From: Mortierella sp. BCC40632 | Taxonomy: Eukaryota > Mortierellomycota > Mortierellomycetes > Mortierellales > Mortierellaceae | Length of the DNA stretch: 64,000 nt | Direction: 5' to 3' | Assembly: GCA_011634665.1 (NCBI GenBank) | Contig: WAEK01000014.1 | Span: forward strand, 186,001 to 250,000 | In this document: positions 12,132 through 20,065 of the stretch, in pieces | Layout of the letters: the number at the start of each line of letters is the position of its first letter | How positions within the stretch are numbered: the first letter of the stretch is position 1 | Program-made: the position numbers and the translations under genes | The notes under the pieces: generated by a model | What the model was told of the DNA's origin: nothing | What the model saw: the letters and a program-made list of their open reading frames with translations, nothing else | The model's database searches: none

Positions 12132-15100
12132 ATGACTCTCCAGCTTGTGTCGTCGCCCTCAGAGTCCTTGGACGAGCGCAAATACCAATGGCTTTGCTAT
12201 CAAGCGGTTGCCCGCTCCGCTGACCCGTTGCTCGTACCCGAGATCCTGGAACGGATCTTGATGCACGTCATCCTACTTAATCGACTAAAGTTCAACGCCC
12301 TGTTTTCATCCGCCTACTCTGCGGCGACGCCTTCGAACTTGGCCTCAGCTGAAATCCAGACGCAGATCAAGAATCAACGTTCAAACTCCAACCGATCCGC
12401 TTTCCTAAGAGTGTCCAAGTTCTGGTACGAGGTCGGTAAGCGGCTTCTTTGGAGAGACATTAAACTATCTTATGCTCAACCGCCCGATGTTCACACCAAG
12501 ATCTGGCGCAACTGGGCTAGTGTCCAGCATCTGGAATTTGAGTATGGTAAAACAGTCAACGACCCAGGCCTGATTCTGGCAAGATTGGCCATCTATACGA
12601 CAAAAGAGGATCCGCCCCCCTTGACCCCTGATCACAACTGCCTCGCCAGTTCGGAACGACGAGGTCATGGGGACCGTGTCACTGCCCAAGAAAACAGCAG
12701 TAGCGGCAGTGGTGGAAATACTAGCTATTCTGCTGCGGCGGGAGCCGATCTGCAGTCGGGACCAGCCATGAACGCGTCCGCATCAGACCAGCCAGACAAG
12801 GACCAACCACAGATACCTTTAAGATACATCCTCGCGAATCTCGCCTCGGCTATGACTAACTTACCGGCTCATTGCCACCCTAATGGTCCTCCACTTTATC
12901 CTCAACCATTGATCCTGTCACCTTCACTGACATCGACGCGGTCCTTGCTCTATCGTTCACGGCTGAAATCCCTCACACTGACGGGTCATTTTCAACTGGA
13001 AAAGTTTCTGATCACCATACTTCCACTTGTACCCGAGCTCGTGTACCTGGATATCAACCTCCGGTGTCCTGAAAGGCGCGACGCAATTCAATTGGGTAGA
13101 GTTCTACAAACCTGTCCAAAACTTGAGTACCTCTCTGTGGAACGGACCATGGTCGGTCTTGTCGACTTTGGAGAGTGGCCAATGCAGGCTGGGGGAGATG
13201 ATAGCATGTTGTCCCTGACAAACCTTGGTCAGGAACAGGATACATCTTTAGATGATCATGAATCAACCAGCGAGGGTGATTCGGATGCAGATTGGGACGA
13301 ATATGAACAGGAACTCGAGAGAAAGCTGGGTCAACTGCCAGGCAACATCAGTCGATACCGGAGAGGGGAGTGGCACTCGAAATTCGCCCACCCAAGGTCC
13401 ACAGACGATGAGAGTTTTCTCGACGACATCATGCAAGCCTACGAACAATTGGAACAGCCCATTACTACTCCCGTAAACGACACTGCCCCAACGAATCCGA
13501 CACCAGCGCTGAATCCTGAGGGAGATGAATGGATGCGACGTCAGCAACGGCTTCGACGAAAACTGAGACGACTCCTTCATCGACCCTTTAAACTCAAAGT
13601 GCTCAAGTTGAAGAAAGTTCGTATTCCTGAAGAAGATTTTCTTCGACTCATTGCGCGATGTCCATCGATTGAGGAAATGGATGTTTACAACACCATTAGA
13701 TGGGGGTGGCAACAACCTTTTTTGGATGCCGTTGCTCGGAGTTGTCCCAAGATTCGTCACCTTCACTTGACCACCAACTACAACCAAAACGAGATTGTCG
13801 TGCCCATGGATATTGACTCTGAATTTGGTCCGCCTGGTCTAAACCCAGTCGGTGCGTCGACGGGAATCACCATTCATGAGAATGGTGTCCACACGACGGA
13901 ACCAAATCAGGATACAGAAACCAACAATGGATTAGGGGCGCACGCGCTTTCTGCTGGTCAGACAACTGCGCATCAACCCTATGATCCTGTGGTCGATTTA
14001 ATCCGACTATTCCCAGACCTACTCTCGTATGATGCCCGATATGTCCGATTTCAGGATCGAGCCCTCAAAACTATTATGAACCATTGCCGTTTCTTGGAGC
14101 GACTCGACTTGACCACTTGCCGAGAAGTGAGCTCAAAGGCTGTGGACAGGTATCTGCGGTATGCTGTGACATTGAGGCATTTCTCAGCGTCAAAGATCAT
14201 GTTGGATGTCGAAGATTTGATCGAGGTAGTAGAAAGGCATCGTTGGTCAGACAGCTCGGAGTCAACCTTACCTCCACGATGGTGGGCTTGTACTGGACTC
14301 GAGACGTTTATTATAGGTGTCAAGAACCCGCGGTTGCTGACCCATCTTCCTGGCTCGCAGCATCAACAGCCAACCATGACTGTAGACCTGCTGGCCGAAA
14401 GCGCAACCGACTTTCGGTATTACTACGGCGCAGGTCAAGGGGGTTCTTCGAGTAGTGGGGAAAAGGCTGGCGCGGATGGTGAAGGTCGCTACGAATATGA
14501 TCATGTTCAGTACTGTACCATGGTTCTGTTCCAGCATATAGGCCGGCTAGCCAAGTTGAAGCGACTAGAGTTGCACCGAGGTAGATTCGATCTAAGAACA
14601 CAACGCCCAGATGCTACTCCCGATGAAACACTACTCTCGTCGTCACCCTCGAATAGTTTACACTCTTATATGGGCAGAACATTGGAAGATCGGTCAGGAC
14701 TTGATGCCAAGGATGCCAAGCGACTCAAAGGGGGACCCAGCACATTTCAACGGGGGCTCAGTCGAATGCGAGGCCTGTTGACTAGTGGTGGTTCCGGAAA
14801 AGGAAAAGGAAGAGCCATGGATCCATTGGGTCCTCACTCACCAAGCCAAGATACTATGGCTCGAGATGTCAAAGGCAAAAAGCCTGTTCATGAAGACAAC
14901 CTTGCGACCCAACGAACCCCCTTGTCGACCGATGGAGAACAAGAGGATCCATTGAACTCGCCAAATGTATGCCTGAGCAGTCAAAACATGGATATGAACC
15001 AGACACCCCGACCCGGGGTTGTCCCATGGTATCTTTCGGGTCTATGGCCACTTGCAGGATTAAAGGAGCTCGAATCTTTCAACATGTCCTGGTCCAATTT

Positions 15101-15257
15101 CCCACAACTCCACGAGTCAGAACTAGAGTGGATGTGTGATCACTGGAAGAGTATAGAGTGGATCATGTTGGGCCAAGTCCCTCAGACTGAATGGGATTCA
15201 ATCTGGTCCTGGGTTCTGAAGCGACGGCCAAGCGTCATTGTTGCCTTTGAAAGGTAG
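12132..15257 (+). CDS. F-box-like / leucine-rich repeat protein
   Basis: Intronless, 1,041 aa. Probable substrate-recognition subunit of an SCF ubiquitin ligase. Residues ~30-95 carry an F-box-like segment: LLVPEILERILMHVILLN followed by FLRVSKFWYEVGKRLLWRDIKL. That is the usual 'P-E-I-L ... CR-x-W ... LW' layout of fungal F-box proteins. Beyond it are scattered leucine-rich units such as LKSLTLTGHFQLEKFL, LKVLKLKKVRIPEEDFLRLI and LERLDLTTCREVSSKAVDRY. They are separated by acidic and Gly/Ser-rich inserts, which make the protein longer than typical members. The C-terminus (SMSW-like LESFNMSW ... IEWIMLGQ) resembles a last repeat. The start ATG follows a pyrimidine-rich leader. The target protein is unknown; fungal genomes of this group carry many such paralogues. 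Confidence 0.8.
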   Translation: MTLQLVSSPSESLDERKYQWLCYQAVARSADPLLVPEILERILMHVILLNRLKFNALFSSAYSAATPSNLASAEIQTQIKNQRSNSNRSAFLRVSKFWYEVGKRLLWRDIKLSYAQPPDVHTKIWRNWASVQHLEFEYGKTVNDPGLILARLAIYTTKEDPPPLTPDHNCLASSERRGHGDRVTAQENSSSGSGGNTSYSAAAGADLQSGPAMNASASDQPDKDQPQIPLRYILANLASAMTNLPAHCHPNGPPLYPQPLILSPSLTSTRSLLYRSRLKSLTLTGHFQLEKFLITILPLVPELVYLDINLRCPERRDAIQLGRVLQTCPKLEYLSVERTMVGLVDFGEWPMQAGGDDSMLSLTNLGQEQDTSLDDHESTSEGDSDADWDEYEQELERKLGQLPGNISRYRRGEWHSKFAHPRSTDDESFLDDIMQAYEQLEQPITTPVNDTAPTNPTPALNPEGDEWMRRQQRLRRKLRRLLHRPFKLKVLKLKKVRIPEEDFLRLIARCPSIEEMDVYNTIRWGWQQPFLDAVARSCPKIRHLHLTTNYNQNEIVVPMDIDSEFGPPGLNPVGASTGITIHENGVHTTEPNQDTETNNGLGAHALSAGQTTAHQPYDPVVDLIRLFPDLLSYDARYVRFQDRALKTIMNHCRFLERLDLTTCREVSSKAVDRYLRYAVTLRHFSASKIMLDVEDLIEVVERHRWSDSSESTLPPRWWACTGLETFIIGVKNPRLLTHLPGSQHQQPTMTVDLLAESATDFRYYYGAGQGGSSSSGEKAGADGEGRYEYDHVQYCTMVLFQHIGRLAKLKRLELHRGRFDLRTQRPDATPDETLLSSSPSNSLHSYMGRTLEDRSGLDAKDAKRLKGGPSTFQRGLSRMRGLLTSGGSGKGKGRAMDPLGPHSPSQDTMARDVKGKKPVHEDNLATQRTPLSTDGEQEDPLNSPNVCLSSQNMDMNQTPRPGVVPWYLSGLWPLAGLKELESFNMSWSNFPQLHESELEWMCDHWKSIEWIMLGQVPQTEWDSIWSWVLKRRPSVIVAFER

Positions 15258-15684: not shown

Positions 15685-17331
15685 TCAGATTGCAGTTGGA
15701 TCAAGGGAGACCTCTGGGATTGCCAGAGTTGAAGAAGTAGGGAACAGGGATGGGGAGCTACTTGGTGTTCTAAGAGTTCGTGGCCAGTCCTGATCCTCAA
15801 AGGGTTCATCCGTCTTGTGTAACTCGTGCTCATTCTTCGTCCAGTTGTTGATATTGCTAGCCATGTCTTTGACTTGTTGTTTGAAAGCAAGTAGTGCGAC
15901 CACCACTGAGAGGAGATCATCAGTATTACTACCATCGGCAACCCAGATAGTCGGGAAAGTGACTCGACAGTCGCATGACAGTTGAAAGAAACCGCCACAG
16001 CAGAGTCGAAGGCTGTAAAATGTAGCTGTCGTGGCTGAGATACGGATACCGAAGGTAACCAGGCGGTTGCATATGTCACCCTCATTGTTACTATTCTTGC
16101 GAATATTGTCAAACATATCCTTCATCATTTTGGCCATTTTCAATGTGTCAGTAAGAGCTTTGGTACCATTCGGTCCATTCTCGAGCTTTGCTGCCTCTAT
16201 CACGACCAGCTCGTATGGTCGATTCGCGCACTTGACAATACCGTCAGCCTTCCGGCCACATTGTTGCCCTGGTCTGTGCTGATAACCGGTTCTGGTTCTT
16301 GCGGAAGCTGGATGCCTGGCAGTGAATCTCACCAGGCTCGTACTCGATAGTTGGTGGGTCGTTGAAAATGTGATTAAGGATGGCCATGGGTTCTCCCTGT
16401 ACCAACTCTCCGAACGCATCCTGGGCAGCTGGAACGCATTCCGCGCGTATACCAAATAGAGGTCACTGACCAATACGTGGATGAGAAGGCAAAAATCGGT
16501 ACTGGGAGTAATATCACATTCTTGGTTCTCCATAGTACTCATGTAGCATTTACCGATCAGCGACTTTACATCCTGCGGTGGATTCTTGTAAAGATCCACA
16601 AATGACCGCTCTGCTTTAGGTAAAGCCCACAAAGCTCTGTCTTTTCTTTTCGTGAGCATACGGTAGAGGCTACTCTTGTCTGCTTGATCGACCACAAGAG
16701 CTAGCACTGCTGCGATATCGTCGATGATCCATGAATGGAGGGCTGACTCTGCCGTAAGACTGACTAGGTATGGGTGTATGAGTTCGTGGAGTGTGGCTCC
16801 AGAGGGGAGACGCCACGGCTCGCCTTGAAAGGCCTTGAGATTGGCCTCATACTCGACTCTCATCTTCTTCAGGGCCTCTGGCTTTAGGCTTCCGCTGCTA
16901 TTGCTGCTGTTTGAGGTGCAAGTCAAGGCGGGTATTGATCGCCGGTTATATCGCGATTTAGTAGCTGAAGTTGATACCAACAATGGCGGTGGTTCTGTGA
17001 CTAATTCGGTCTGTTGCCCGCTGTCTTCTTCGTTCTCCTCGTCTCTGATGTCTTCCTTCATGTCATTGAACGCTTTGATGCACTTGGGGACATCTATCGA
17101 CTCGACTATGAGCGGATACTTATCTGTGTTCGATCCGTCAAAAAAAGCCTGGATCCAGTCCCAGGTCTTGATAAGAACGGATGATGATGCGCATGAGTGG
17201 GTTGTCTTGATGAAGCTGGAAAACGCTTCATAGTTGAGTTTTGGGTTTGGTCCAAGGTGCTGGAGATGCTCAACTGCTAGTAGTTGCACAATGGACGGTC
17301 TTATTTTTTGGAAGATCACTCTTGCTATCAT
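15685..17331 (-). pseudogene. Probable nuclease-like (PD-(D/E)XK-type?) family member with two compensating frameshifts
   Basis: One open frame of 548 aa, function unknown. The C-terminal half has GRKADGI, then ELVVIEAAKLENG, then DTLKMAKMMKDMFDNI. I recognise this arrangement only as a large uncharacterised family in early-diverging fungi. The spaced Asp, then Glu-x-Ala-Lys, is reminiscent of a PD-(D/E)XK nuclease core, which is inference. Between ~16400 and ~16260 the as-read protein loses sense (PWPSLITFSTTHQL and following). A shifted frame there reads as an ordinary soluble protein (ILNHIFNDPPTIEYEPGE ... CQASSFRKNQNR). The frame returns just before GRKADGI. That implies one lost base near 16385 and one gained base near 16260-16285. 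Whether this is real decay or an assembly error cannot be decided here. Additional 5' exons are possible, since the start at 17331 is not well supported. Confidence 0.55.
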
Positions 17332-18180
17332 TTCGTGTACCCTTTGTAAAAAAAGAATGAAAGAAAGAGAGAGAGAGATATGAGTACAAGGTTAGGGAAA
17401 TATTTGCCAGCTTGTAAAGAAGGATAGTCCAGGTCCCTTCTCTTACCTTAGACTCGCTGACAGAAACGCGCTTTGCGGTTGTCCGCTCTGCCCCCTAGTT
17501 AGAAAGAATGAGGCGAAGATACGCGTCAGCTTTAGTCACCCTGGCTCTCTGTCTTTGGACTCGACAACATCCTCTATTCTTTACCTCGGCTACTGGACCG
17601 GCTGAAATGGGTCGTTTTGGCATCGATGTTGTTCCCCAGGTAACTTGATCGTCTATTGTGCAACACAGCGTATCAGTCAACAAGCTCAACAGTACAAGTG
17701 ATCGCATCCTCTGGACCTCTGAAAGGCTGTCTGCGTTCTCTCGCAAGAAAAGCAAGCCGTCACAACTGCTCTTCGTCGTTACCTTCAGGTTATCCTTTTT
17801 TTTTTTACAGTGGAATGAGGGGACACGATGCAGGGAAGAGACGAGGATGCAACAGAGAACTAAACGGAGGCGAAGTGGCGTCTTCCAACTATCAAGGCAA
17901 TGGAGAAGGCCCAAGCGCAGCTGACGTCGCTCCCACTCTGAGTCACTGTCAACATCCATTTATTTTTTTTTTTTGCTACTCCCACCATCCAACCTCTCAC
18001 TCTTCATCAACCCAATTACCCTTCACTCGAGCCAACCCTTCTTCACATTACTCAGCACTTTACGACACTCTGCGACAGTTCAGAACTCTTCACAGCCTCC
18101 GACAACAATACGAATCTCTCAGGTAATGGTGGCAACTATGAGAAACTGAACAGGGCGTTGTGCACGGAAATCAAAGTCTG
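17332..18180. other. Gene-poor region with leader-like sequence
   Basis: No convincing gene. On the minus strand an open frame from 17959 starts with an acidic MDVDSDSEWER segment that could be a lost upstream exon of the nuclease-like gene. On the plus strand 17950-18122 is pyrimidine-rich and ends CTCTCAG/GTAATG, like a 5' leader with a donor. Neither could be connected to downstream coding sequence. Confidence 0.4.
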
Positions 18181-18351
18181 AACGTGAGCAGAGTCTGCCT
18201 TGGGTCCAGGAGAGGCACAACACCAAGCTGGTGGGCTGGTGAGGGTAGAGCCTTCAAAGCTCTATCCACCTCTCCATATGACCTCTCCATATCCAAGGAT
18301 CCTCCTTGGTTGTGGTGGTGCTGGATAATAGGCAACTTCTCTGAGATTACT

Positions 18352-18469
18352 CCTTGGGTCCATGATATGACACTCTTGCTTAGACTTGCTCTGAACAATT
18401 GTGTGGTTAAGCTGTTGACGCTAACCTAGCCTCTCCATATGACCTCTCCAACACCTGTGTTGGTGGTGC
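18352..18469 (+). repeat. 118-bp direct repeat, copy 1
   Basis: Nearly identical to 18786-18903 (4 differences in 118). One difference falls in the loop of the hairpin near the end, leaving its stem intact. The similarity is much higher than between the other units, which suggests a recent segmental duplication inside the older array. Confidence 0.85.
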
Positions 18470-18785
18470 AGCAATCTCAGAGAAGACCTGTCGTCAGTCT
18501 TGTGGGTCCATGAGAGAATGTTGAGGGTTGTAGGAGCTCTCTCTCCATATGACCTCGTTTGTCTTTGTGTTTCGCTCCTCGTTGGGATGAACAGGGATCC
18601 GTATCGCCTTCAGCGAGAAGACCAGCTCCTTGGGTCCATACGAGAAGCACTCCAACACTTGTTTTAGCACAGGTGTGGGTTTGTGCCTTGGTACAGATCC
18701 ACTTCTCTGAACATGACCTCGCCATGGTCTCTTCTGACCATGGATGGTGCTGCTGGTGTTTGAACTGAACGCATCTGAATCTGTT

Positions 18786-18903
18786 CCTTGGGTACATGAT
18801 ATGACACTCTTGCTTAGACTTGCTCTAAACAATTGTGTGGTTAGGCTGTTGACGCTAACCTAGCCTCTCCATATGACCTCTCCAACACTTGTGTTGGTGG
18901 TGC
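18786..18903 (+). repeat. 118-bp direct repeat, copy 2
   Basis: Second copy of the segment at 18352-18469. It ends with the hairpin CCAACAC/GTGTTGG at 18882-18897. Confidence 0.85.
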
Positions 18904-19050
18904 TACAGATTGGAGCTATCCTCTGGGATAGCTATGGTGAAATGTCTCATTTCTGGCTGCGGTTGTTATCATCGCTGGATGATAGGGACCTCCAAGTAGT
19001 TTGGATTAATAGCATCAAAGGAGAAGTGTGGTTGTGTTCTCCTTGTAGTT

Positions 19051-20065
19051 GCTAACCATTACATTTTTTTTTACTTTTCCAGGTATTGCTTTTCTCACTA
19101 GGTATTGTGTAAACTGAGTACGTTTAAAAGGCAGTGATTGGACCGATAGATACTACAGCTTCTTCCAGGGTACTCAATAGAAGACAGGTAATATACGATT
19201 CCTCAGCGTTATTTGTTTATAATCGGTGCTACTTGAAAGGAGGAGTTATAGGTTTGTGTTGTCTGCGTTGCTTGCGCTGAGAATTACAATGAAGTCCCTT
19301 GGGTCTATCGAATCCGTTGAAATCCATCATGGGGAACCTCCTTCCACCATCCGACTATTTATTCTGTCTTCGATATACACCCAGCAAGTAGGATTTTTTT
19401 TTTCTCTATCCTTTGGAGGCTCGTCTTGGACCTTAAATTCCTTCTTTGACAACTGCACTTTGTCAAACATGAAAATGTTCATGCGGGGATCCTATGTCTC
19501 TTCCGCCATTTGTCTGTCAAGGAGAGGGATAGAATCACTGGGAAGATTGTAGGCTCAACTAAACAAGTTCTTGAGAGGTGATAATTCATGACACGGCAAT
19601 ACCAGTTTTTTACTGATAGGTTGCTGCATGCTGAAGTGTTTGCAGACACGGGTACTTTGACAACTGAGGTAGACAAAGAGACAAAGAGAGAGAGAGAGAG
19701 AAAAGGCTCGGATTGTAGTCTTGCAGAGGCAGTGGTATACAGTTGTCAGTAAAAAATGAGTGACATGATTTCGTCATAGAAAGTAATAGTAGTGGCACCA
19801 GTGTCTACCTGTTGATAGATTGGTAAGGGTTTGTCCGGCCTGCTGTAGAAAAATCGAAGCCTGGTTGAACACGGTAGTTCTGTGATACTGCCCGATCTCT
19901 GGCACCTTTTCTGGAGAAAGTGGTGCTCTGCTCTATGGTTGATTCGAGTTGGAATATCAGACAAAGGTTGTCAAGCCATCCTATAAGTAATGGTCGCTGA
20001 AGAATCATGAAGGGTTGAGCATAGTGATTCATCGTTGACCGTTGGGTCGTGAAGAAAAGGAGGAA
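19051..20065. other. Unassigned region upstream of small five-exon gene
   Basis: No supported gene. A plus-strand segment starting ATG at ~19289 (MKSLGSIESVEIHHGEPP) and running to a possible donor at ~19388 has ordinary amino-acid composition. It may be a stray exon, but no acceptor partner was found. A GA microsatellite sits at ~19687-19702. Confidence 0.4.

Follow-up and report, generated by a model that had tools for sequence, protein, structure and literature searches.

Intron-encoded snoRNAs are stable structured RNAs that lie within the intron of a short host transcript. The ToxI repeat is 36 nt in length. To our knowledge, large structured RNAs that belong to no known class are rare and mostly bacterial. 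HsdR-type nucleases and the mitoribosomal large-subunit chains '5' and 's', which we take to be mL37 and mL65, are also among the closest known systems for the locus reported here. Passages of PMC12286853 describe GOLLD, ROOL and OLE as large, ornate bacterial RNAs; passages of PMC8860590 describe ToxIN as a type III toxin-antitoxin system, in which a repeated structured RNA lies beside one protein gene; and passages of PMC9860276 and PMC4457414 describe introners, or Introner-Like Elements, as dispersed repeats that act as introns.

In the window (the whole 64,000-nt stretch of Mortierella DNA that was analysed), we identified a 940-bp element at 18123-19062 of the forward strand. We consider it fairly probable, judging from sequence, that the element encodes a large structured noncoding RNA that forms the intron of a short host transcript. 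Like the intron-encoded snoRNAs and their host genes, it would place a structured RNA in an intron-like setting of a short, here putative, host transcript; different from them, it is several times larger, is built of repeated units and has no Rfam match at gathering score. Like introners, the element is dispersed and its copies are bounded by splice signals; however, it is long, its copies are few and mostly diverged, its fold is elaborate and covarying, it is linked to one protein family, and its flanks appear mostly non-coding, from inspection by eye and from Pfam searches of 10 flanking frames. It resembles GOLLD, ROOL and OLE in being a very large multi-helix RNA, but it is eukaryotic and intron-like, with repeated units and no Rfam match. 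With ToxIN it shares a repeated structured RNA adjoining one protein gene, whereas its unit is ∼2–4 times longer. The layout of type III toxin-antitoxin systems, in which the toxin follows the RNA repeats on one transcript, was rejected, since RNA and gene lie on opposite strands at seven of the eight linked clusters. Searching the 64-kb window with the 4227 families of Rfam 15 gave no match at gathering score, and a literature search, mainly outside subscription papers, found no earlier description of such an RNA among the papers listed. The word stem 'mortierell' is absent from the main texts of two surveys of fungal structured RNAs (PMC8216456, PMC5640933). This large folded RNA family has apparently not been described before.

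The first-pass annotation had reported a tandem array of hairpin-bearing units at 18190-19050. The array is real, but these coordinates are too narrow: homology across unrelated loci covers 18123-19062, and the array forms the middle of the element. The features of the element, all on the forward strand, are as follows.

18123..19062, forward strand: whole RNA element, intron-like, from GTAATGG (5′ splice-site-like) to CTAACCATTAC
18123..18136, forward strand: T1 closing helix, 5′ strand, pairing with 19049..19062
18146..18166, forward strand: T2, the second closing helix, 5′ strand, pairing with 19025-19040
18195..18322, forward strand: regular unit U1 (model R1, 79.5 bits; R1 seed unit)
18349..18471, forward strand: regular unit U2 (model R1, 70.8 bits; R1 seed unit)
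18497..18626, forward strand: variant central unit U3 (model R1, 33.9 bits over 18498-18591; outside the seed)
18625..18754, forward strand: regular unit U4 (model R1, 57.9 bits; R1 seed unit)
18783..18905, forward strand: regular unit U5 (model R1, 66.8 bits; R1 seed unit)
18906..19048, forward strand: 3′ domain, the most conserved part, with the TTAATAGCATCAAAGG core
19025..19040, forward strand: T2, 3′ strand, pairing with 18146..18166
19049..19062, forward strand: T1, 3′ strand, holding the branch-site-like CTAAC (19052-19056) with a bulged A
19063..19082, forward strand: pyrimidine-rich tract and AG, a 3′ splice site predicted from sequence

Across the copies, the RNA ranges from ∼410 to 1,080 nt in size. 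Two closing helices, T1 and T2, bring its ends together; inside T2 lie a 5′ hairpin, usually five units of ∼80–155 nt, and a 3′ domain that carries a well-conserved TTAATAGCATCAARG. In T1, the first 12 or so bases of the element pair with its last, and the A of the YTRAC is left bulged. Pairs 1–10 of T1 are each formed in 12–13 of 13 copies, pair 11 in 11 and pair 12 in nine; pair 8 is U-A in nine copies, C-G in two, U-G in one and broken in one. The T1 helix of locus L051, which has no YTRAC, is continuous and without bulge. At one T2 pair, 6 of 13 copies have C-G and the other 7 have U-A. The array that had been proposed as a structured noncoding RNA is therefore not free-standing; its RNA structure is supported, and it sits in the middle of a larger RNA that is closed and has intron-like ends.

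In our drawing of a regular unit, P1 (GGGUC/GACCU), an internal loop, P2, whose sequence is variable, and P3, which is the hairpin noticed at first, meet in a junction; support for the closing P0 comes mainly from individual folds. All four hairpin stems were found as they had been given: CCAAGGA/TCCTTGG in U1, CCAACAC/GTGTTGG in U2 and U5, and CCATGGTC/GACCATGG in U4. The fifth unit, U3, is of a different subtype that lacks TGGTGCTG and aligns in third position in five other loci (L022, L023, L024, L026 and L027). U1, U2, U4 and U5 match model R1 by construction, because all are seed units of it. Counted by eye, five unit positions are present in nine copies (in L049, U3 is degenerate), four in the pair of copies on contig C2, and two in each of L021, L025 and L050. 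From one repeat start (TGGGTCC or a variant of it) to the next, the distances are 154, 148, 128 and 158 bp. Tandem Repeats Finder, run over the array, reported only a 13-bp repeat at 18268-18292 and not the array itself, a miss that probably reflects the strong divergence of the units.

The search of the whole genome for the unit, suggested in the first-pass annotation, brought up many other copies. It covered the assembly to which the window belongs (49.9 Mb, 62 contigs), with the array region as first query; divergent copies were then reused as queries, and one more copy was added through the unit model. At least 16 copies of the element were found, in 12 clusters on 10 contigs; these counts are lower bounds, and all copies come from one genome. 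C14 and C4 hold two clusters each, and the others lie on C6, C9, C2, C27, C17, C3, C5 and C10. One of the C4 clusters has two copies. The C2 cluster has three, two of which lie in an inverted repeat and are 94% alike; this inverted repeat of 2.6 kb belongs to L024 (C2:1045500-1052500), and the third copy, shorter and diverged, lies beside it on the minus strand at about C2:1046.6-1047.0k. C10 has two copies, one of them degenerate: located in L080 and the start of L071 (C10:1286.46-1286.80k), it has no recognisable 5′ end, and the intact copy is ∼2.5 kb off. One weak RVT_1 match (L071:1669-2271) was noted near the degenerate copy. WD40-repeat genes lie near the RNA copies of both L023 and L049, probably by coincidence of a common fold.

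Pairwise local identity between loci is mostly ∼59–78%, and 87–94% within sister pairs. A looser 19-letter core pattern gave 19 matches in this genome, compared to 7 in a backward control. Eleven of the 19 are known copies; for two extra matches with 2 mismatches (C1 and C10:847k) the fetched sequence contained no unit, and the remaining six have 3 mismatches. A 22-letter core pattern had no exact match in IMG/VR viral contigs and prokaryote genome contigs; this test is narrow because the pattern fits only some of the copies in this genome.

To define the edges, the copies were delimited at GTAATGG and at the CCATTAC-like end, and 11 loci, one per sister pair, were compared. Upstream of the element, pairwise identity is 0.27 at −60 to −11 and 0.31 at −10 to −4, and then climbs to 0.56, 0.82 and 1.0 at −3, −2 and −1; the first seven bases of the element are identical (1.0). 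Downstream, identity is 0.50 over +1 to +10 and 0.26–0.27 farther out, and the tract is rich in pyrimidines (84% C or T at +1 to +12). Homology between loci begins and ends at the intron-like edges, being near chance up to −4 and past +10. All 14 tabulated copies read G|GTAATGGY, that is, an exon-side G followed by a GTAATGG donor; 13 of them, with L051 as the exception, have a YTRAC branch-like site near the element end, and in all 14 the first CAG, TAG or AAG lies 11–60 nt downstream. AATAAA is present within 300 bases downstream of 7 of the 14 copies, a count without chance control. A G with GT donor, a YTRAC, a pyrimidine-rich tail and an AG are signals of a spliceosomal intron. The element matches the sequence signals of a U2-type spliceosomal intron, and its removal from a transcript is predicted. 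With cmscan, no Rfam model of a group I or group II self-splicing intron matched at gathering score in the 64-kb window; with E up to 10, the region 17900-19300 gave only 2 weak matches, both to other families. A tRNA scan gave no identification of the element either.

Dispersed copies whose homology stops at intron edges, some of them degenerate, are what a mobile intron (an introner-like element) would leave; its structure would serve its own mobility or the tolerance of splicing, not a function of the host, and the protein gene described below would be its partner or passenger. The L027/L050 pair (C4:1097.9-1100.6k) fits this as well: the two are 87–90% identical inside, the similarity takes in ∼47 nt upstream and ends ∼22 nt past the T1 helix, in the pyrimidine tract, so the RNA and a short exon seem to have been copied together, a hint that an RNA may be the thing copied. 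However, there are only ∼16 copies; their flanks, judged by eye and from reading frames, look mostly non-coding and not like interrupted coding exons, and no target-site duplication was seen by eye in the flanks of 9 copies. In addition, the window copy and its sister L021 have ∼130 bp in common on each side of the element, as well as the gene region, and this pair was therefore copied as DNA. Moreover, copies that are only ∼59–70% alike retain the architecture and the pairing, which suggests long selection. Taken together, we regard a mobile intron as rather unlikely.

Pairing that is kept while the sequence changes had been claimed for the hairpin stems. Such covariation is hardly testable on the five units of the window alone, but it holds for P2 and P3 over 40 regular units from 13 loci, and in controls on a wider unit alignment. 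The 40-unit set, used for the swap tests of P0 to P2, forms 11 groups after sister merging; the U3 units, the unclear units (L024 U1, L025 U1, L026 U1, L071 U1 and U5) and the copies L024b, L024c and C10:1286k were left out. For P2, strands paired with their own partners give −8.91 kcal/mol, compared to −6.92 kcal/mol with foreign partners (z −5.3, 40 units); for P3, the values are −8.67 and −4.72 kcal/mol (z −9.9, 39 units). In both helices the own partner is better in 11 of 11 locus groups (Wilcoxon p 0.001 each). In the distal part of P2, own partners bring no clear gain (z −2.0, 7 of 11 groups, p 0.52), P1 varies too little in sequence for the test (z −0.3), and the own partners of P0 are slightly worse than foreign ones (z +1.7); 74.7% of the P0 cells are paired, and all 4 pairs show changes on both sides. 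Among the closing helices, the inner part of T1 scores −3.69 with own and −1.92 with foreign partners over the 11 loci, and none of 5000 permutations is as good; T2 scores −10.62 and −8.70 (permutation p 0.0022), the own partner being better in 10 of 11 loci.

Pair counts were controlled on 55 distinct unit rows; 84.6% of cells are paired compared to 75.6% after shuffling, and cells with double-sided change number 97 compared to 35, counts that are favoured because the alignment was fitted to the model. None of 500 shuffles reaches any of the five measures, and six slid versions of the unit structure are all lower, with 44–58% paired. Tree-based simulations and pair tests on the units used 53 of 61 rows; the omitted rows were duplicates, the chance match window:11503 and the degenerate L071:158. 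The single-pair test used 100 simulations and the consensus-fold test 60 of these. The consensus fold of the core is −77.0, compared to a simulated mean of −28.3 (sd 6.7, minimum −49.5); that of the unit is −18.9, compared to −4.1 (sd 3.0, minimum −11.6). With a helix score of 1.79 against a largest simulated maximum of 0.78, P2 is the only unit helix that beats all simulations; no core helix does so (best score 2.40, simulated maximum 2.59). The check for significant covariation in the manner of R-scape, which the first-pass annotation had advised, came out negative for single base pairs: in two such tests, none reached E<0.05.

The annotation had left it open whether selection acts on RNA or on a DNA cruciform; the strands speak for RNA and disfavour the cruciform. 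G-U pairs and A-C mismatches stand at 70:3 in T1 and T2, 137:23 in the core and 141:45 in the units, counts with some bias, as the sense strand was used to choose the structures. The large excess of G-U pairs over A-C mismatches means that it is the sense RNA that is maintained; the sense strand also has the more stable fold in 14 of 14 copies, two of which are the near-identical C2 pair. The null of the annotation was an old palindromic satellite with chance stems, having no covariation above background, no other genomic copies and no transcription. The selection on RNA structure and the other copies run counter to two of these three points. Although the units are repeats and no base pair is significant singly, the swap, slide and simulation tests, the strand asymmetry and the intron-like edges make the satellite hardly credible.

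Next to the RNA element, one protein family recurs. Its member in the window is:

15685..17331, reverse strand: divergent 548-aa ORF of the family recurring beside the RNA element, with a possible local frame disruption in the window copy

Within 5 kb, 8 of the 12 RNA clusters have a family gene, and 8 of the 16 gene places, including the 5 best-scoring ones, have an RNA copy; the other four clusters have no family gene and the other 8 gene places no found RNA copy within this distance. Part of the linkage could stem from co-duplication alone, as for the window copy and L021. At one linked cluster, L026, the element lies on the same strand just upstream of the family gene, where it could act in cis as a regulatory structure within that gene's 5′ leader. 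In the other 7 linked clusters, RNA and gene lie on opposite strands (5 divergent, 2 convergent), and such a role is very improbable.

In this analysis, the protein family was found only in Mortierellaceae. Around 16247-16462, the window ORF matches its family in two frames, and it may carry a local frame disruption. It matched no family in Pfam, NCBIfam or PADLOC, and its relatives gave only scattered weak matches. The AlphaFold model of the window ORF is poor (pLDDT 63.4), and Foldseek matched it to nothing at E<=0.001; an intact homologue was therefore modelled instead. The linked protein is tentatively considered PD-(D/E)XK-like. Two gene copies, C7:1931636-1932784 and C14:866750-867606, have one in-frame stop each in the matched part and no found RNA copy nearby; they are perhaps orphaned, decaying or intron-interrupted. 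At C7, a 1.5-kb stretch whose end lies 336 bp ahead of the match has no credible unit (best 4.7 bits). Upstream of the RNA–gene pair, the window also contains a 1041-aa ORF (12132-15257) with a weak Pfam match to LRR (F-box-associated).

The structured RNA probably works with the linked protein. In the mechanism that we propose, a short host RNA would be transcribed and the element would be spliced out of it as an intron. After debranching, the two ends would zip into helix T1, which begins exactly at intron base 1; closure of T1 would protect the intron from exonucleases and yield a stable RNA, as with intron-encoded snoRNAs. While it lasts, the pairing of the 5′ splice site with the branch site should hinder splicing. 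The repeated units would serve as several similar docking sites, most likely, given the linkage, for the protein of the neighbouring gene, and docking would assemble a multivalent RNA–protein particle. It is doubtful, though conceivable, that the pair forms a eukaryotic cassette, a selfish or defensive element of Mortierellaceae that would work in the manner of type III toxin-antitoxin systems or an OMEGA-type effector RNA. Several copies of the neighbouring protein, which may have a nuclease fold, would then be bound by the intron-borne, multi-unit RNA and be controlled or directed by it.

A fungal family of RNAs up to 1 kb long, in which each member fills an intron-like unit and zips its 5′ splice site to its branch site, would add a new kind to the intron-encoded RNAs. 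The recurrent protein-gene neighbour suggests a new RNA–protein machine, and this protein offers a direct handle for binding and knock-out tests.
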